This document shows, piece after piece, positions 23,072 through 31,461 of a stretch of DNA of 64,000 bases; position 1 is the first letter of the stretch, and each line of letters starts with the position of its first letter. The stretch covers positions 1 through 64,000 of the forward strand of contig JAQVAV010000005.1 in the NCBI GenBank assembly GCA_028690665.1, given 5' to 3'. Under the pieces are notes generated by a model. The model saw only the letters and a program-made list of their open reading frames with translations, did no database searches and had not been told where the DNA came from. Source of the DNA: Paludibacter sp. (GTDB lineage: Bacteria; Bacteroidota; Bacteroidia; Bacteroidales; Paludibacteraceae). The translations under genes and the position numbers were made by a program.

Positions 23072-23200
23072 AAAACACGGAATGTACAAAAGTTTCCAGA
23101 CGGAGTGCTCCCGATAAATAGGGATTACAGCACTTTGAAAGGTATATCTGCAAGCTTTGTCTTATACGCTTGCTAAGGATTATCCGGATCATGTATTATT

Positions 23201-23383
23201 GAACTTATCTTGACTTTTAAATCAAGACAGAATTAACGAGTATTATATTCCCTTTTCAGACAGAAAATACAGATTTTATTCTCTATAGATTTCTGTAATC
23301 CTGATTCTATCGAGGAATCTTTTGTCTTATTTTTCTAATCTTTATTGAAACAAAGAATTACTACGAAAAGTCAAGACGAGTTC
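23201..23383 (-). repeat. MITE-like repeat, copy 2, with terminal inverted repeats
   Basis: GAACTTATCTTGACTTTT (23201-23218) and the reverse complement of 23366-23383 (GAACTCGTCTTGACTTTT) match at 16 of 18 positions. The 183-bp element is non-coding and matches copy 1 (1599-1775) in inverted orientation. ATT occurs immediately outside both ends, a possible 3-bp target duplication. It lies between the TonB receptor and the accessory module. Confidence 0.75.
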
Positions 23384-23389
23384 ATTATA

Positions 23390-23407
23390 AAAAGTCAGGA
23401 CAACTTC
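23390..23407. repeat. Extra copy of the MITE terminal repeat
   Basis: AAAAGTCAGGACAACTTC repeats the right terminal sequence of the element (AAAAGTCAAGACGAGTTC) with three mismatches, 6 bp outside it. Confidence 0.55.
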
Positions 23408-23418
23408 ACAGTAATATT

Positions 23419-23523
23419 GAATAAAAGAATAGTAATACGTAATAAAATAACAGTAATATGAAACAACAATACTATATCACGAAATAATATTACTATAATA
23501 TGATATAAAGACACTATAATATA
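23419..23523. repeat. Five degenerate 21-bp AT-rich tandem repeats
   Basis: Units begin at 23419, 23440, 23461, 23482 and 23503, each 21 bp. Examples are GAATAAAAGAATAGTAATAC+G, TAATAAAATAACAGTAATAT+G and AAATAATATTACTATAATAT+G. The shared core is an A/T stretch followed by a(g/c)(t)(a)ATA(t/c)G. Because 21 is a multiple of three, the antisense translation shows a heptad pattern, but there is no credible gene. The array sits ~160 bp upstream of the HTH gene. Confidence 0.6.
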
Positions 23524-23637
23524 AAGATAGAATACAGAAGTTTTGAAATAACATATAAGCGACCTGAACAAACAAACTAATACAGACAAAAACATAAAAA
23601 TAAATTTGATATTTATAAAAGTTTAACGATAAATGTT

Positions 23638-23645
23638 TATATTTG
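23638..23645 (+). promoter_or_regulatory. -7 element of the HTH regulator gene
   Basis: TATATTTG matches TAnnTTTG, 36 bp before the ATG at 23682. Confidence 0.5.
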
Positions 23646-23681
23646 CCAGCATGAATTTAACCTTCAATCTAAAAAATTTTT

Positions 23682-24038
23682 ATGTTACAACTCAATTTAG
23701 CCGCCGTGATTAAGGCCAGAGGCATACAGAAGCCCACGGCATACTTAGTAAACATGGGATTCAGCCACGATTTGGCCACCCGATTAGCCAACAACAAGGT
23801 TGGTACGCTCCGGCTGAGCCAGATAGAGAAGTTGTGCTATCATCTGAACTGCTCGCCCAACGATTTGCTAACCTGGACACCGGGCAAAAACCAGGTGGTG
23901 GCGGACAATCATCCTTTACAAAAACTGAGAAGAACCAATGACCCTGACAGTATGCAACTGCTGAAAGAAATGCCCTACGATGAACTACTGGCCCTGAGCC
24001 GGAAAATACAGGAAGAGAAAGAAACGAACGCGGAATAG
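23682..24038 (+). CDS. XRE-like helix-turn-helix regulator
   Basis: This is a 118-residue cytoplasmic DNA-binding protein. The first ~68 residues form a Cro/C1-type fold: AAVIKARGIQKPTAYLV, a recognition region around ATRLANNKVGTLRLSQIEKL, then the characteristic NCSPNDLLTW end of the XRE/HTH_26 class. The tail (~75-118) is charged and probably helical, with no enzymatic motif. It precedes the methyltransferase by ~430 bp and is on the same strand, a usual place for a controller (C-protein-like) of a restriction-modification locus. The 21-bp repeats upstream are plausible binding sites; that is inference. Confidence 0.75.
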   Translation: MLQLNLAAVIKARGIQKPTAYLVNMGFSHDLATRLANNKVGTLRLSQIEKLCYHLNCSPNDLLTWTPGKNQVVADNHPLQKLRRTNDPDSMQLLKEMPYDELLALSRKIQEEKETNAE

Positions 24039-24468
24039 CCGGAATGATTGGCACTCAATACAAAAGCCGGCATGGTTTACAAATAAAAAACAAAACACCC
24101 GGTAACTTTTTTTATACGAGTATTTCGTATCTTCGCAAAAAGAGTTTTATTTTTGCCGATCGCCACAAAGCCCGCCGACAACTTATAAGAAACAACCATT
24201 TATATTCAACTGTGTTAGCACAACAAAGCTAACGAATCAAAATTGAGAAGAGATTTATTTTACCCTTCCCGCCTTGAGTTATCAAACAATTAAGATTGAT
24301 TTAGTGGAGTATTTAAAACAACAGTCAACGCACAAACCGGATAGCCTGAGAAGAAGGCAAACCGATACAAAACCATTTTTCAGGCAAAAACTGTTTTTTA
24401 TTCCCACAAACTCTCAATTAGGAGATAATAATTATATTTTTGTAGGCCAGAGTACTTTTAACACGTAA
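24039..24468 (+). promoter_or_regulatory. 430-bp gene-free leader of the defence module with stacked promoters
   Basis: Short open frames here (63 and 65 codons) show no recognisable protein. Three TAnnTTTG-like elements occur: TATCTTCG at 24129-24136, TATTTTTG at 24148-24155 and TATTTTTG at 24435-24442, the last giving a ~20-nt leader for the methyltransferase ATG at 24469. I see no hairpin terminator after the HTH gene. An unannotated small RNA or antitoxin-size peptide cannot be excluded. Confidence 0.4.
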
Positions 24469-27168
24469 ATGAATAGCAAAGAAGTAGAAAATAGCGTCAA
24501 ACAAGTCATTGAAAATTTCTCGGAAGAAGAGTTTATTTTTGATTTATTATTGGCTTATGGAGCCTCAAAAACCTCGGTAACCCGTTTAAAAAAAGGAGAC
24601 TTCAACCTTTCGAAAAACACTGGAGAAGTATTTTACAAAAAGAAACTTTTCTTCAAACCCGAAGAAACTGACAAACTTTTGAGTACAATTGATTCAGTTA
24701 GCAGTAACGAACAGATATTAAAACACCAGCCCCGGTTTGCTATTGTTACTGATTACAAACAGTTAGTTGCCAAAGACCTTAAACTTGGCAAAAGCCTCGA
24801 CATTGAAATACAAGAACTTCCAAAGTATTACGACTTTTTTTTACCGCTTGCCGGCAGCGAGGTTTACAATACAAAAAACAATAACGAAGCCGACCGCGAT
24901 GCAGCCTATAAAATGGCACAGCTTTACGATAATTTAGTCCACGCCAACGAAAATTTATATAACTCAAAAGAAAGCATCCACAACCTGAATATTTTCCTTT
25001 CACGATTATTGTTCTGTTTTTTTGCCGAGGATACCGGGATATTTGAGGAAGACAGCATTTTTACCAACACGCTGGTACAACACACCTCGGAAGATGGCTT
25101 TGACACGCACGAATTTCTCAATGAATTATTTACGCGACTAAACACAAAAGACGGCAGTAAATTTCCGGCTTACTTAGAAAAATTCCCTTATGTAAACGGC
25201 GGATTATTTGGGAAGGCGGTTGAATCGCCACATTTTACATTTAAAGCGCGCAAAACGCTTATCGAGCTTGGCGAATTAAACTGGAAAGATATTAACCCGG
25301 ACATTTTCGGGTCTATGATTCAGGCTGTTGTGTTGCCCGAATACCGGAGCGATTTGGGGATGCACTATACTTCGGTAGAGAACATTCTGAAACTGATAAA
25401 ACCATTGTTTTTAGATGAGTTATATGCCGAGTTTGAAAAGCACAACGACAATGTAACGCAACTGCGGAAGTTGATTATCCGAATTTCGAAGATGAAGTTT
25501 TTTGACCCGGCTTGTGGCAGCGGAAATTTCCTCATTATTACCTACAAAGAAATCCGGTTGCTCGAAATAGAAATACTGCAACGCATTATTGACCTTACGC
25601 CCGACCCGACACTTGAATTTACACAAATACAACTGTCGCAGTTTTACGGCATCGAAATTGACGACTTTGCCCACGAAATGGCGATACTCTCGTTGTGGCT
25701 GGCCGAGCACCAAATGAACCGTATTTTTGAAGAACGACTTTTCGATTACGGACGCTCAAACCCGATTTTACCATTAAAACAATCAGGACAAATAACACAA
25801 GGCGATGCAACACGTAAAGAATGGAACGAAGCCTGCCCTATTACAGAAAAGGATGAAGTTTATGTTATTGGGAATCCTCCGTATTTAGGAGCAAGGCTGC
25901 AAGATGCTGAACAAAAAAAAGATATGAGCATTGTTTTCCAGAATACAAAAGGCTACAACAATATGGATTACATTGCTTGTTGGTTTCAGAAAGCACAAAA
26001 ATATATCAACAACAAAAATGCAAAAGTGGCATTTGTAACAACAAACTCCATTTGTCAGGGAGAACAAGTTGCCTTGTTGTGGCCTCATATTCTATCAGAA
26101 AACATTGAAATAGGATTTGCTTATCAGTCTTTCAAATGGACAAACAACGCAAAAGGAAATGCAGGTGTTACGGTAATAATTATCGGATTAAGAAATGTTT
26201 CTAACGCACCTAAATATTTATTTGAAGGCGGATTCCAAAATCCAGCAAAAAACATTAATCCATATTTGTCAGATGCAACAAATATAATTGTTACAGGTAG
26301 AAATAAACCAATTTCTAGTATTCCAGAAATCAATTTTGGAAATATGGCAAATGATGGAGGACATTTGCTCCTATCTAAAACGGAGAAAGAAGAACTAGTA
26401 AAATTTGAACCACAATCAAAACCTCTTATAAAAAGATTAGTTGGAGCACTTGAATTCATTCGTGGTGTTGAAAAATATTGTCTTTGGATTGATGATGAGA
26501 ATAAAGATTTTGCATATTCTTTACCTAATGTTGCCAAAAGAATAGAAGACACACAGATATCACGAATGAACAGCAAACGCAAATCGACACAAGAATTAAG
26601 TACAGTTCCTTACAAATTTGCGGAAATAAGATATTTTGAAACAGATTCTATAATAGTACCCAGTGTTTCTTCCGAAAGAAGAGAATACATTCCTATTGGT
26701 TTTCTAGACTCTAACAATATTATAGTTGCTCCAAATTTCGGAATCTACCACGCCGAACCGTGGCTGTTTGCGGTTATTACATCCCGAATGCATATGACTT
26801 GGGTAAGAGCAGTTGGTGGACGATTAAAAACAGATTACAGATATTCGGCAAAGCTTTGTTACAACACATTTCCATTTCCCAATATCAGTCTAAAACAAAA
26901 AGAGAATCTGAATTTGTACGTATTTGCCATTTTGGATGAGCGGGCAAAATATCCCGAAAAAAACAATGGCACAATTGTACAACCCCGGTACAATGCCCAA
27001 AGGCTTAAAACAGGCACATCGAGAATTGGACGAAGCCATCGAAAAATGTTACCGTTTGCAACCCTTTTCAACCGATACCGAACGGCTCGAATACCTGTTC
27101 AAACTATACGAAGAAATGGTCAGCAAAGACACTCTGTTTGCCAAACAAAAGAAATCAAGAAAGCGTAA
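24469..27168 (+). CDS. MmeI-like adenine-specific DNA methyltransferase, C-terminus frameshifted
   Basis: This 899-residue protein should modify one strand of its recognition site at adenine. The SAM-binding motif I FDPACGSGNFL is at ~345-355 and catalytic motif IV NPPYLGA at ~470-476. A helical region precedes the core and a target-recognition region follows (~600-820), as in MmeI/type IIL enzymes. The N-terminal domain, where MmeI has its D-x-ExK nuclease residues, reads GEVFYKKKLFFK with no ExK. A run of seven A (26957-26963) shifts the frame. With six A the protein continues PEKTMAQLYNPGTMPKGLKQ to a stop at 27181 (903 residues), the normal family ending. As given, the last ~70 residues are nonsense. 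Confidence 0.85.
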   Translation: MNSKEVENSVKQVIENFSEEEFIFDLLLAYGASKTSVTRLKKGDFNLSKNTGEVFYKKKLFFKPEETDKLLSTIDSVSSNEQILKHQPRFAIVTDYKQLVAKDLKLGKSLDIEIQELPKYYDFFLPLAGSEVYNTKNNNEADRDAAYKMAQLYDNLVHANENLYNSKESIHNLNIFLSRLLFCFFAEDTGIFEEDSIFTNTLVQHTSEDGFDTHEFLNELFTRLNTKDGSKFPAYLEKFPYVNGGLFGKAVESPHFTFKARKTLIELGELNWKDINPDIFGSMIQAVVLPEYRSDLGMHYTSVENILKLIKPLFLDELYAEFEKHNDNVTQLRKLIIRISKMKFFDPACGSGNFLIITYKEIRLLEIEILQRIIDLTPDPTLEFTQIQLSQFYGIEIDDFAHEMAILSLWLAEHQMNRIFEERLFDYGRSNPILPLKQSGQITQGDATRKEWNEACPITEKDEVYVIGNPPYLGARLQDAEQKKDMSIVFQNTKGYNNMDYIACWFQKAQKYINNKNAKVAFVTTNSICQGEQVALLWPHILSENIEIGFAYQSFKWTNNAKGNAGVTVIIIGLRNVSNAPKYLFEGGFQNPAKNINPYLSDATNIIVTGRNKPISSIPEINFGNMANDGGHLLLSKTEKEELVKFEPQSKPLIKRLVGALEFIRGVEKYCLWIDDENKDFAYSLPNVAKRIEDTQISRMNSKRKSTQELSTVPYKFAEIRYFETDSIIVPSVSSERREYIPIGFLDSNNIIVAPNFGIYHAEPWLFAVITSRMHMTWVRAVGGRLKTDYRYSAKLCYNTFPFPNISLKQKENLNLYVFAILDERAKYPEKNNGTIVQPRYNAQRLKTGTSRIGRSHRKMLPFATLFNRYRTARIPVQTIRRNGQQRHSVCQTKEIKKA

Positions 27169-27252
27169 AACCAAAGGTTAATTAAAACCTAAGTGGCACG
27201 TCGGAATTTCCGACAAACCACTCAACAAAATGTTATAGAAGAAAGAATAATT

Positions 27253-28296
27253 ATGGTGGACTTAAATAAATATAATCCGAACACAAATTTTCTACTGTAC
27301 AAAACAGACAGTGGCGATGTGAAAGTTGATGTTTTGCTGCAAGACAAAACGATTTGGATGCCCCAAAAAAACATTGCAGAACTTTTTGATGTAGGAGTTC
27401 CTGCCATTTCAAAGCATCTTAAAAACATTTTCGAGAGTGGAGAATTAGACGAAAAAGTGGTTGTTTCCATTTTGGAAATAACCACTCAACATGGTGCTAT
27501 TGCTGGAAAAGAGCAAAGTATAGCAACTAAATTTTACAACCTCGATGCAATTATTGCAGTCGGCTATCGTGTCAATTCGCACAGGGCAACTCAGTTCCGC
27601 ATTTGGGCAACAAAAATACTTCAAGAGTATGTTATTAAAGGATATGCAATGGATGTGGAAAGGTTGAAAAACCCACAGCCAATTTTCGGGGAAGATTATT
27701 TTAAGGAACAGCTCGAAAAAATCAGGGACATACGTAGCAGCGAGCGTAGGTTCTATCAACAAATAACCGATATTTATGCCGAATGCAGCATTGACTACAA
27801 TGTAAATTCAGAAACAACAAAAAGGTTCTTTGCTACCGTTCAAAATAAACTGCATTGGGCAATTACAGGAAAAACAGCAGCCGAAATAATTGTGTCGAGA
27901 GCCGACCACAACAAAGACAAAATGGGATTAACATCGTGGAAAAACTCTCCCGATGGAAAAATTCGCAAATCGGATGTGTCAATTGCCAAAAACTATTTGA
28001 CAGAGAAAGAATTGAAACCATTGAACAGAATTGTAACAATGTACCTCGATTATGCCGAAGACCAAGCCGAGCAAGGCATTGCAATGAAAATGATAGATTG
28101 GGTAGAAAAATTAGATGCTTTCTTACAATTCAACCAAAAAGAAATATTAACCGATACCGGCAAAGTAACTGCTGCAATAGCGAAATCGTTTGCCGAAAGC
28201 GAATACGATAAATACAGAGTAATTCAGGACAAAAATTACATCTCAGATTTTGACCGTGAGATTAGTAAAATGATTGACAAAAAAAAGGATTCATAA
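27253..28296 (+). CDS. RhuM family protein
   Basis: This 347-residue protein belongs to the RhuM family, first named as a Salmonella pathogenicity-island gene and often found embedded in restriction-modification loci. Family hallmarks are VDVLLQDKTIWMPQKNIAEL, then HLKNIFESGELDE, YNLDAIIAVGYRVNSHRATQFRIWA (split across ~100-122) and the C-terminal Fic/DOC-adjacent HWAITGKTAAEIIVSRADH. No Fic catalytic HPFxxGNGR is present. The ATG at 27253 is preferred; a GTG at 27193 would add 20 unconserved residues. It lies 71 bp after the repaired methyltransferase stop and 1 bp before the helicase start. The biochemical role is unknown. Confidence 0.87.
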   Translation: MVDLNKYNPNTNFLLYKTDSGDVKVDVLLQDKTIWMPQKNIAELFDVGVPAISKHLKNIFESGELDEKVVVSILEITTQHGAIAGKEQSIATKFYNLDAIIAVGYRVNSHRATQFRIWATKILQEYVIKGYAMDVERLKNPQPIFGEDYFKEQLEKIRDIRSSERRFYQQITDIYAECSIDYNVNSETTKRFFATVQNKLHWAITGKTAAEIIVSRADHNKDKMGLTSWKNSPDGKIRKSDVSIAKNYLTEKELKPLNRIVTMYLDYAEDQAEQGIAMKMIDWVEKLDAFLQFNQKEILTDTGKVTAAIAKSFAESEYDKYRVIQDKNYISDFDREISKMIDKKKDS

Positions 28297-28297
28297 T

Positions 28298-30266
28298 ATG
28301 CCCGACTTAGTACATGTAACCTATAATCAAACAGGGAAAAGCAAAAAAACGAATGCTTTGGGAATGCGTGAAATGCAGGAAAAAGCATTTGCAGCAAACT
28401 CTGCTCAATATCTTTTAATTAAAACCCCTCCCGCATCCGGAAAATCAAGGGCTTTAATGTTTATTGCACTCGAAAAATTACATCATCAGGGCATTAAAAA
28501 AGTGATTGTGGCCGTTCCGGAAAAAGCCATCGGAGCGTCTTTTGCACCAACTGAGTTAAAAAAAATACGGTTTCTTTACCGATTGGCAACCCAATCCAAA
28601 ATACAATTTATGTACTCCCGGTGCCGATAATAGTAAAGTTGCTGCATTCCTAAAGTTTTTGGAATCCGATGAACAAATACTGATTTGTACACACGCCACA
28701 TTGCGTTTTGCATTTGATGGTTTGGACGAAAAAAAGCTAAACAATACGCTTATTGCTATTGATGAATTTCATCACGTTTCGGCTGATGGAGATAACCGTT
28801 TGGGCGAAGTTATGAAAGCAATTATGGACAAGTCAAATGCCCATATTGTTGCAATGACAGGTTCGTATTTCAGGGGCGACAATATCCCGGTATTAATGCC
28901 CGAAGACGAAGCTCGTTTTACAAAGGTTACCTATAACTATTATGAGCAGCTTAATGGCTACGAATATTTAAAATCGTTAGGAATCGGCTATCATTTTTAT
29001 CACGGTCGTTATTTCAAGAAACAGCCAGACAAAGAGATGTCCGCCTTAGAAGAAATTCTTGACGAAAACAAAAAAACAATCATCCACATTCCCAGTGTAA
29101 ATGCGGCTGAATCATCAAAAGACAAGTACGAGGAAGTTAACCATATTATCGATGCTATTGGCGAGTTGGAATATCAGGACAATGAAACAGGTGTTCTGTT
29201 CGTGAAAAGTAAACGTTCGGGCAAAGTACTGAAAATGGCCGATTTGGTAAACGACAACCAAAAAGCAAGAGATAAAATTACAACCTATTTGAGAAGTATT
29301 AATTCGCCCGATGATATTGACATTATTATTGCATTAGGAATGGCAAAAGAGGGCTTTGACTGGCCTTGGTGCGAGCACGCTTTAACTATTGGATACAGAG
29401 GTTCGTTAACTGAAATCATCCAAATTATTGGTCGAGCCACAAGAGACAGTAGGAATAAAACTCACGCGCAATTTACGAACCTCATTGCCGAGCCCGATGC
29501 TGAAAATGAAGAAGTAAAAGTAGCGGTAAACAATATGCTGAAAGCAATTACTGCATCATTGCTCATGGAACAGGTTTTAGCCCCAAACTTTAATTTCAAA
29601 CCCAAAAGTTTACACGATGACGATGAGCCGGACGATGAGAATGAACCAGAGAATACAATCAAAATCAGGGGATTTAAACTGCCATCATCTCAACGGGCGA
29701 AAGATATTATCGAATCTGATCTGAACGACTTAAAAGCTCGCATTTTACAGGACGACACAATGTTGAAGGCAATGCCCGGAAACATTGAACCCGAAGTAAT
29801 CAATACTGTGTTAATTCCTAAAATTATCAGAGAAGTTTACCCCGACTTAAACGATGAAGATGTTGAAGCGGTTCGCCAACACGTAGTAGTCGATTCAGTA
29901 ATAAAAAACAGCACTATCGAAGAACAGGGCAATAAAAAATTTGTCCGTATGGCTAACAGCTTTGTCAATATAGATGATATTCATATTGATTTGATTGACC
30001 AAATAAATCCTTTTCAAAAAGCGTTTGAAATTTTATCAAAATCAGTAACTACACAAGTATTGAAATTGATAAATGAACACATTCAGTCTACAAAAATTGA
30101 AATGACTGAAGAAGAAGCTATAATTTTGTGGCCAATAATAAAAAAATGGAGAGAAGACACAGGCGAAGTTCCAAGTTTGCAATCTTTCGACCCGAAAGAA
30201 AAAAGAATGGCTGAGGCGATTGTATTTTTAAAAGAATTGAAACGACAAAGAATGCTAAATGAATAA
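28298..30266 (+). pseudogene. SF2 DEAD/DEAH-box helicase interrupted by a +1 frameshift
   Basis: Two frames together make one helicase of about 655 residues. The first (ATG 28298) gives Walker A TPPASGKSRALMF (~50-60) and runs to ASFAPTELKK. At an eight-A run (28558-28565) the frame is lost. In the +1 frame the sequence continues KYGFFTDWQPNPKYNLCTPG and then ICTHATLRFAFDGL, the Walker B IDEFHH, motif III AMTGSYF and motif VI QIIGRATRDSR. With seven A the gene would be intact. The second part alone has an ATG at 28659 but lacks Walker A. The C-terminal ~240 residues are unique, ending 8 bp inside the next gene. It presumably translocates on DNA as the motor of the defence module. Confidence 0.85.
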
Positions 30267-31461
30267 AAAAATAACTATAGACGATATTTTTAATGATGAC
30301 GATTTTGGATTATTAGATTCAAAGCCTCAGACCTCGTATACCAAAACTGACGAAGATCGCCTTATTGAATCGTTTGAAGAAATTAATGCCTTTGTCGATT
30401 CAAATGAAAGAGAGCCGGGTACTTCAAGTATGTCCGAATATCGTTTATCAGCAAACCTAAAAACATTCAGGCAAGACGAAGGAAAAAAAAGGACACTAAA
30501 ACCTTTCGACCGGCATAATTTATTGGGATATGTTGAAATGAACAAGCCGAGCATCGATGATATTTTGAATGAAGACGATGACTTATTAAATACAGAAGAA
30601 GACCTTTCAATCTTTAAGTTTCGCAATATACCAAATCCTGAAGAACGTGCCGAAGCTGATTTTGTAGCTCAGCGTAAACCGATGAGAGAAAAAGATTTTA
30701 AACCGTATGAAAAAATGTTTCAGAAGGTGCACCAAGAAATCAAAGAAGGAAGACGAAAGATAATTCCGTTTCAGAACATCGAGAAAAATCTGCATGTTGG
30801 CAATTATTACCTCATGGATGGAGTACTACTACTTATAGAAGAAGCAGACTTGGAACAATCTTTAAAACAGCTAAAATCCGGGAACAGAATAAGAATTGAT
30901 GGACGGACACGAACCATATTTGAAAATGCCACATACAGTAATATGCTGTACCGGTCATTAGGGAAACAAATTCAGAAAAGTGGTATGGCAATTACCAATA
31001 CCGATGAATATTCCCAAAATGAATTATTTGTAAATGCCAATTTAGTAAAAGAAGATGATGTACAAACAGGTTGGATTTATGTTTTAAAATCAAAGAATCC
31101 GCAAGTCAAGGATATAAACGATTTGTATAAAATTGGATTTACGAGTACAACGGTCGATGAACGTATAAAAAATGCAGAAAACGAAGCCACTTACCTGTTT
31201 GCCGATGTTAAAAAAGTCGCAACTTATGTTTGTTACAATCGAAATGCCGATAAATTAGAACAACTGCTTCATCGCTTTTTTGCTGAAGCGTGTTTAAATA
31301 TTGATTTATACGACAATAAAGGACAAAGATACATTCCGCGCGAATGGTTTGTCGTTCCGTTTGAAATAATAGAAGAAGCAATCCAGTTAATTGTAACTGA
31401 AAAAATTCTGTATTATAGATATAATGCACAATTACAGCAAATAGTTTTAAAGAATGAATAA
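30259..31461 (+). CDS. GIY-YIG/T5orf172-type nuclease protein
   Basis: This is a 400-residue protein. Its C-terminal third has the GIY-YIG layout: GWIYVLKSK (~273), then DLYKIGFTSTTVDERIKNAE with the Arg of the family, and Glu/His-bearing DKLEQLLHRFFAEA (~335), as in T5orf172/MUG113 domains. The N-terminal ~130 residues are acidic and contain the same motif twice, TIDDIFNDDD at 6-15 and SIDDILNEDD at 98-107. The middle (~135-260) is a helical region of no known family. The gene overlaps the helicase by 8 nt, indicating translational coupling. I infer that it is the DNA-cutting subunit. Confidence 0.82.
   Translation: MNKKITIDDIFNDDDFGLLDSKPQTSYTKTDEDRLIESFEEINAFVDSNEREPGTSSMSEYRLSANLKTFRQDEGKKRTLKPFDRHNLLGYVEMNKPSIDDILNEDDDLLNTEEDLSIFKFRNIPNPEERAEADFVAQRKPMREKDFKPYEKMFQKVHQEIKEGRRKIIPFQNIEKNLHVGNYYLMDGVLLLIEEADLEQSLKQLKSGNRIRIDGRTRTIFENATYSNMLYRSLGKQIQKSGMAITNTDEYSQNELFVNANLVKEDDVQTGWIYVLKSKNPQVKDINDLYKIGFTSTTVDERIKNAENEATYLFADVKKVATYVCYNRNADKLEQLLHRFFAEACLNIDLYDNKGQRYIPREWFVVPFEIIEEAIQLIVTEKILYYRYNAQLQQIVLKNE

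Follow-up and report, generated by a model that had tools for sequence, protein, structure and literature searches.

A DnmA-YeeB-YeeC-like, putative restriction locus with a RhuM gene in a variable slot, probably damaged, in Paludibacter sp.

The window analyzed here, 64,000 nucleotides of Paludibacter sp. (assembly GCA_028690665.1, contig JAQVAV010000005.1, positions 1 to 64,000), carries four consecutive genes on its plus strand that are predicted to encode an adenine DNA methyltransferase, a RhuM family protein, a superfamily 2 (SF2) helicase, and a GIY-YIG protein. The methyltransferase gene (24469..27181) is DnmA/YeeA-like, includes its own target recognition domain, and is spread over two open reading frames (ORFs; 24469-27168 and 26924-27181) with a frame change at about 26.95 kb. 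RhuM (27193..28296; PF13310, E 4e-111) occupies what proved on comparison to be a variable slot between methyltransferase and helicase. The YeeB-like helicase follows (28298..30266), again in two ORFs (28274-28630 and 28659-30266) with a frame change at about 28.57 kb, and then the YeeC-like protein (30259..31461), whose C-terminal nuclease domain (MUG113/T5orf172) is assigned by Pfam and whose N-terminal part has no Pfam match. The ORF list and Pfam agree with a first-pass annotation of this DNA on gene positions, shared strand, and order, as well as on the 1-bp spacing from RhuM (end, 28296) to the helicase ATG (28298) and the 8-nt overlap between the helicase (end, 30266) and the GIY-YIG gene (start, 30259). 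The listed GTG start of RhuM may lie about 20 codons too early, since its relatives are 340-355 amino acids long.

By Pfam, the methyltransferase, helicase, and GIY-YIG genes have the same domains in the same order as the published DnmA(YeeA)-YeeB-YeeC cluster, with RhuM in addition. Bacillus subtilis dnmA-yeeB-yeeC has been described along with its counterparts in other species, in which a helicase takes position +1 and a T5orf172/GIY-YIG protein position +2 relative to the DnmA homologue, and YeeB and YeeC homologues are said to have been named as putative antiphage genes in an earlier survey (PMC9973331). DnmA shares 38% identity with MmeI without having its endonuclease motif (PMC7261158), and the flanking genes, together with the suggestion of a Type I-like restriction-modification (RM) system, go back to Morgan et al. 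2009 (as cited in PMC7261158). Methylation by B. subtilis DnmA has been shown by others. The likeness thus consists of an MmeI-like methyltransferase without nuclease motif, an SF2 helicase, and a T5orf172/GIY-YIG protein in the same order and on the same strand, whereas the window adds RhuM between methyltransferase and helicase and contains two frame breaks. The same three genes occur in Bacillus mediterraneensis and B. thermotolerans with the slot empty, and MmeI_TRD profile matches were found in the B. subtilis control genome. We consider it quite likely that the locus is a Bacteroidota copy of DnmA(YeeA)-YeeB-YeeC, a Type I-like RM system distributed over three proteins, carrying a RhuM passenger. 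The first-pass annotation knew of no characterized system of this composition, a statement that has to be withdrawn for the core, which is already described as dnmA-yeeB-yeeC. Its proposal that methylation marks self while helicase and GIY-YIG protein act on DNA fits the "Type I-like RM" suggestion of the literature (PMC7261158) and the conserved motif residues of the helicase and GIY-YIG protein.

The first ORF of the methyltransferase contains the Pfam domains MmeI_N, MmeI_hel, MmeI_Mtase, and MmeI_TRD and the second contains MmeI_C, and the protein matches the solved MmeI structure 5hr4 over residues 85-846 (E 8e-171). Cleavage by MmeI uses V69-D70 and E80-M81-K82, with D70, E80, and K82 as the motif residues (PMC4833311). 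At these aligned columns the window methyltransferase has E, K, and E and so lacks the nuclease motif. An alignment of 92 sequences shows D, E, and K to be jointly missing from the window and from 86 of 86 operon methyltransferases (a duplicate, L166, the same as L070, remains among the 86), and in none of these sequences does an acidic residue in the E column occur along with K in the K column. Three of the 86 do contain a match to the regular expression D-x9-E-x-K, which we read as chance, the aligned catalytic columns lacking E or D plus K. Five MmeI-like methyltransferases fetched with no helicase in view served for comparison: four keep D-x9-E-M-K (L179-L182, of which L182 is cut off by the end of its contig), and L183, from a contig of 5.5 kb, does not have it. 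By sequence, then, the methyltransferase is of the nuclease-less kind because the motif residues are gone at the aligned catalytic columns, and a single-chain MmeI-type enzyme is ruled out by the same absence. This creates an annotation trap, in that the top PADLOC match, "REase_MTase_IIG", names the protein a Type IIG restriction enzyme though the nuclease motif is gone. Partial profile matches to DrmMI (6e-29), mad2 (1e-17), and PglX models are expected because adenine methyltransferases are related.

To place the locus among its relatives, we compared 109 loci from many phyla, defined by non-identical helicases after removal of duplicates (L158, L166, L171) and weak fragments. Of these, 77 come from named genomes, scanned with a Niallia helicase as query (the best 80 of 581 relatives, many phyla), and 32 from other genomes. 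Weak or fragment matches in G016, G120, G289, G632, G956, and G1074 were left out before counting, and plasmid loci L036-L043 stand outside the 109; the loci not drawn from the 80 lean to Bacteroidota, so that the frequencies given here are not population estimates. A GIY-YIG gene was found by script downstream of the helicase in 108 of the 109 loci, with a gap of at most 150 bp in 103, and in the 109th (L145) the end of the helicase and a GIY-YIG ORF share 184 bases, more than the script's cut-off allowed. Because it recurs in 108 of 109 loci, the pairing of helicase and GIY-YIG gene is beyond chance. Five wider gaps (271-481 bp) hold ORFs of 72-93 amino acids; the small ORF in L094 and the related L093 matches the first ~90 residues of the GIY-YIG protein, and L095 has one of similar size in the same place. 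A methyltransferase was found upstream of the helicase in 94 of the 109 loci, and 14 of the other 15 have at most 2.4 kb of upstream sequence. Helicase motifs are kept in 108 or 109 of 109 loci. In the GIY-YIG protein, 62 of 62 aligned rows share G271, Y274, K291, G293, R302, and E334, which we take to be catalytic in a GIY-YIG fold.

The C-terminal piece of the window helicase is 72% to 87% identical to its nearest relatives. It matches 184 plasmid records and none of 50,697 phage records, and a phage-borne module is not supported by these counts. On a plasmid, the helicase between methyltransferase and GIY-YIG gene is annotated "restriction/modification system component YeeB". The helicase piece has matches in 13 of 100 genomes of relatives, in 17 of 393 genomes drawn from the order, and in 12 of 395 drawn from the class (overlapping draws, with the window's own genome and weak matches counted), and the GIY-YIG protein in 8 of 296 genomes of the phylum. 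One helicase subfamily (L004-L009, L052, and L064) has open frames of ~712-735 amino acids with two overlapping match stretches to the window helicase, as if by an insertion or internal repeat.

In the window, the helicase lies downstream of the methyltransferase on the same strand with one gene, RhuM, between them. This slot is empty in 50 of the 94 relatives with both genes and contains 1-5 ORFs of at least 90 amino acids in the other 44 (41 at a threshold of 200 amino acids), 79 of 82 such ORFs being on the operon strand. The helicase-GIY-YIG junction has no ORF of at least 100 amino acids in 108 loci and two of 90-93 (L094, L095); with those two counted, slot and junction differ at a Fisher's p of 2e-15, which is not a strict probability as the loci are related. 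By Pfam, the 48 slot ORFs of the named loci (including that of L158, the same as L074) gave HATPase_c_4 (9), RhuM (8), AlbA_2 (7), AAA_21 (4), SMC_N (4), Bro-N (3), and Fic (2), and once each YhcG, a HigB-like toxin, an OLD-like TOPRIM, UvrD, DUF3800, and others, the tally listing 25 of 37 families. The slot ORFs of the other loci added AlbA_2, PDDEXK_3, YhcG, KilA-N, Abi_C, FRG, DUF3800, Bro-N, a SecB-like protein, and others; Pfam gave no match for 11 of the 30 proteins submitted, these 30 being a chosen subset that includes three from L077, which has no methyltransferase, and one from plasmid locus L040. Inside the slot of L085 (L085:6211-7210), a SecB-like gene stands with an unknown gene, presumably resembling a chaperone-controlled toxin-antitoxin pair.

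Mapped on a helicase tree, the filled state changes 23 times compared with 31.9 for shuffled labels, which suggests that a filled slot as such is somewhat inherited. RhuM behaves differently. It is found in 13 of the 94 loci (one of them, L167, a fragment) plus the window, and L006 and L139 have RhuM upstream of the helicase with the methyltransferase out of view. Its presence over the 95 rows of the tree takes 13 changes against a mean of 13.3 for shuffled labels, counts that may be inflated, since the tree was built quickly and has weak support at 34 of its 92 inner branches; because this scatter matches shuffled labels, RhuM is not inherited together with the core. Identity to the best database relative is 94% for the window RhuM, and identity to the best match in the compared loci is 87% for the helicase and 71% for the methyltransferase, which suggests, with the proviso that the searched sets differ, that RhuM arrived recently and separately. 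RhuM matches, partial ones included, were found in 48 of 60 related genomes, the window's own among them.

RhuM could also be an obligatory subunit of a new four-gene system, a reading in keeping with its 1-bp spacing to the helicase here and with the 8 of 13 other RhuM loci in which its end lies no more than 20 bp from the helicase start. We regard this as very improbable, since the slot is empty in 50 of 94 loci and holds RhuM in only 13, and since the neighbors of 20 RhuM copies include Type I, Eco57I-type, and ResIII genes (64 neighboring ORFs scanned). Near relatives point the same way in part: by path length the nearest helicases, L069 and L155 of Dysgonomonas hofstadii, have empty slots, followed by L164 of Labilibaculum sp. 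K2S with RhuM, L156 with an empty slot, and L135 with RhuM. Judged by this distribution, RhuM is an interchangeable passenger and not part of the core. The first-pass annotation had combined all five genes, a helix-turn-helix (HTH) regulator included, into one candidate module; the core does co-occur in other genomes and already has a name, which removes the novelty, and RhuM and HTH are not conserved members, so that a new four- or five-gene system is rejected.

No description of an activity of RhuM was found in the literature searched. The best match of its predicted model (per-residue confidence, pLDDT, 74) in PDB is Deinococcus DdrC (E 9.5e-4; template modeling scores 0.22/0.33), a weak hint that the modeled N-terminus may bind DNA. 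RhuM was proposed in 2013 as a toxin in restriction operons (PMC3710099), and PrrC, the model for the guard idea followed here, is embedded in a Type I operon and released upon T4 infection (PMC3874165). The operons with PrrC, RhuM, or Fic genes (PMC3710099) resemble the present one in having toxin-like or guard genes, RhuM included, inside a restriction operon, and differ from it in that the host operon here is DnmA-YeeB-YeeC with a single insertion junction.

The core resembles Type IIL (MmeI) in the methyltransferase, target recognition, spacer, and C-terminal domains (5hr4, Pfam), but the window methyltransferase lacks D-x9-E-M-K, and the helicase and GIY-YIG nuclease are encoded in separate genes. 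With Type I it would share an adenine methyltransferase, sequence recognition, an SF2 motor, and a nuclease acting as one unit, a combination that Type ISP enzymes also have; unlike in either, the recognition domain lies inside the methyltransferase and the GIY-YIG nuclease is a protein of its own. The annotation's statement that hallmark genes are absent is borne out by the ORFs scanned: no Methylase_S (HsdS) or HSDR_N (HsdR) match was found by Pfam in the operon-region ORFs, and no PglZ, BrxL, or DrmB (DUF1998) match of BREX or DISARM in seven operon-region ORFs by Pfam, PADLOC, and NCBIfam, genes further out not being scanned. PADLOC, which it had proposed to consult, does recognize RhuM (candidate PDC-S05, a strong match) and part of the GIY-YIG protein (PDC-S57, 5e-7), while no matched model names the three-gene set.

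As a Type I-like RM system, the locus would be expected to work through a methyltransferase that methylates adenine at a short asymmetric site on host DNA by means of its own target recognition domain and that, together with the helicase, detects incoming DNA by its unmethylated sites. The helicase, an SF2 motor, would move along the DNA, and the GIY-YIG protein, whose gene overlaps that of the helicase, would cut it. RhuM, as the passenger in the slot between methyltransferase and helicase, would probably serve as a second-line or guard gene.

With the frames of both large genes broken, this copy probably has no activity, provided that the assembly is correct at these points. Alignments of intact relatives to the window switch frame at ~26.95 kb in the methyltransferase and at ~28.57 kb in the helicase, so that each gene is in two pieces; a DEAD match (below the Pfam cut-off) and Helicase_C fall in separate helicase ORFs. 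Intact genes, as an active phage defense would have, were thus not found in this copy, assembly errors being possible. The first-pass annotation does not mention the breaks, and its phrase "repaired operon" suggests that they were seen. No frame break was found in ten flanking genes checked with NCBIfam. For eight of the ten, the match to a single family spans almost the entire protein or, in the case of isoleucine-tRNA ligase, almost the entire profile (adenosylhomocysteinase, for instance, covers profile 1-416 of 416, and alanine-tRNA ligase 1-847 of 847); the matches of the other two, a histidine kinase and an S41 peptidase, extend over no more than 236 and 300 residues.

The breaks could be assembly errors in an intact locus. 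Both frame changes lie close to A runs in the assembly sequence; two breaks within ~1.6 kb of one operon, set against none in ten flanking genes, make this explanation unlikely. The same clustering of damage would suit a restriction relic in which only the function of the methyltransferase in gene regulation is or was recently under selection, with the helicase, GIY-YIG gene, and RhuM as remnants. The relic reading has a precedent in B. subtilis, where deletions in the cluster left infection by three phages and transformation unchanged and the authors speak of a relic (PMC9973331, PMC7261158), and a stop interrupts the methyltransferase of the nearest relative, L069, as well. Yet the methyltransferase itself is broken here, contrary to what a regulatory relic predicts, and the helicase and GIY-YIG motifs are kept across relatives as described above. 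The methyltransferase is broken in only 4 of 87 relative loci where no contig end cuts it, and none of the 109 loci has a helicase ORF of less than 600 amino acids, although selection of loci by helicase match favors intact helicases. In Vibrio crassostreae, moreover, deletion of the dnmA and yeeB homologues led to higher sensitivity to some phages (PMC9973331). We therefore regard the relic as rather doubtful.

Several further observations, like the unchanged phenotypes in B. subtilis, weigh against the locus being a Type I-like DnmA-YeeB-YeeC system with a recently acquired passenger. The kinship to B. subtilis YeeB and YeeC is a presumed one, drawn from domains and gene order. Sequence comparison with PDB gave no relative for either the GIY-YIG protein or the helicase piece, and the predicted GIY-YIG model (mean pLDDT 79) has no PDB fold match at E 0.001. 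L077 contains helicase and GIY-YIG genes with no methyltransferase match in 9.6 kb upstream, and it is possibly a methyltransferase-free or rewired variant; SIR2, HerA, and AlbA_2 genes precede the pair in this locus (G337). Finally, L164 and L135, nearly as close to the window as the relatives without RhuM, carry it, and RhuM could be somewhat older in this branch. With these points included, the locus is best read as one for Type I-like restriction that has decayed or was mis-assembled and whose second-line gene is interchangeable.

The HTH_26 regulator gene (23682-24038, plus strand; Pfam) lies upstream, ~430 bp apart from the operon, with a GC content of 49% compared with 37% for the operon. 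It has no relative at E 1e-6 in any of 112 operon loci scripted, some of them short, and its relatives in 7 of 48 genus genomes (the window genome counted) nowhere adjoin this operon. We judge it by these comparisons to be a neighbor and not a member of the system. The AT-rich stretch between a TonB-dependent receptor gene and the HTH gene (window 23080-23680; 27% GC) contains no gene-like ORF, and the sole repeat found there is one two-copy 16-nt repeat. A search of 16 genus genomes for flank synteny and an empty site gave no result, the flanking genes having diverged too far or lying on contigs unrelated to each other.

Taken alone, the window locus is an ordinary and probably damaged representative of a cluster already described, and the part worth following is the comparative slot. 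This slot is filled in nearly half of the examined loci, in many cases by families associated with abortive infection or toxins, and the junction after it contains at most small ORFs. No description of a variable slot in this cluster was found in the literature searched by title and abstract start, with subscription papers mostly outside. By analogy with PrrC in Type I, we tentatively propose that the methyltransferase-helicase junction may be one dedicated cargo slot, repeatedly loaded with interchangeable second-line genes (RhuM, Schlafen/AlbA_2 ATPases, Fic, YhcG, Abi_C, FRG, and OLD-like ATPases). The restriction complex would keep these genes silent or sense them, and a phage that disables the complex would thereby release them. 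If slot genes do guard the restriction complex, the slot would be a place to find new defense effectors, RhuM especially, and the cluster family would be a general carrier and sorting point for unknown defense effectors.

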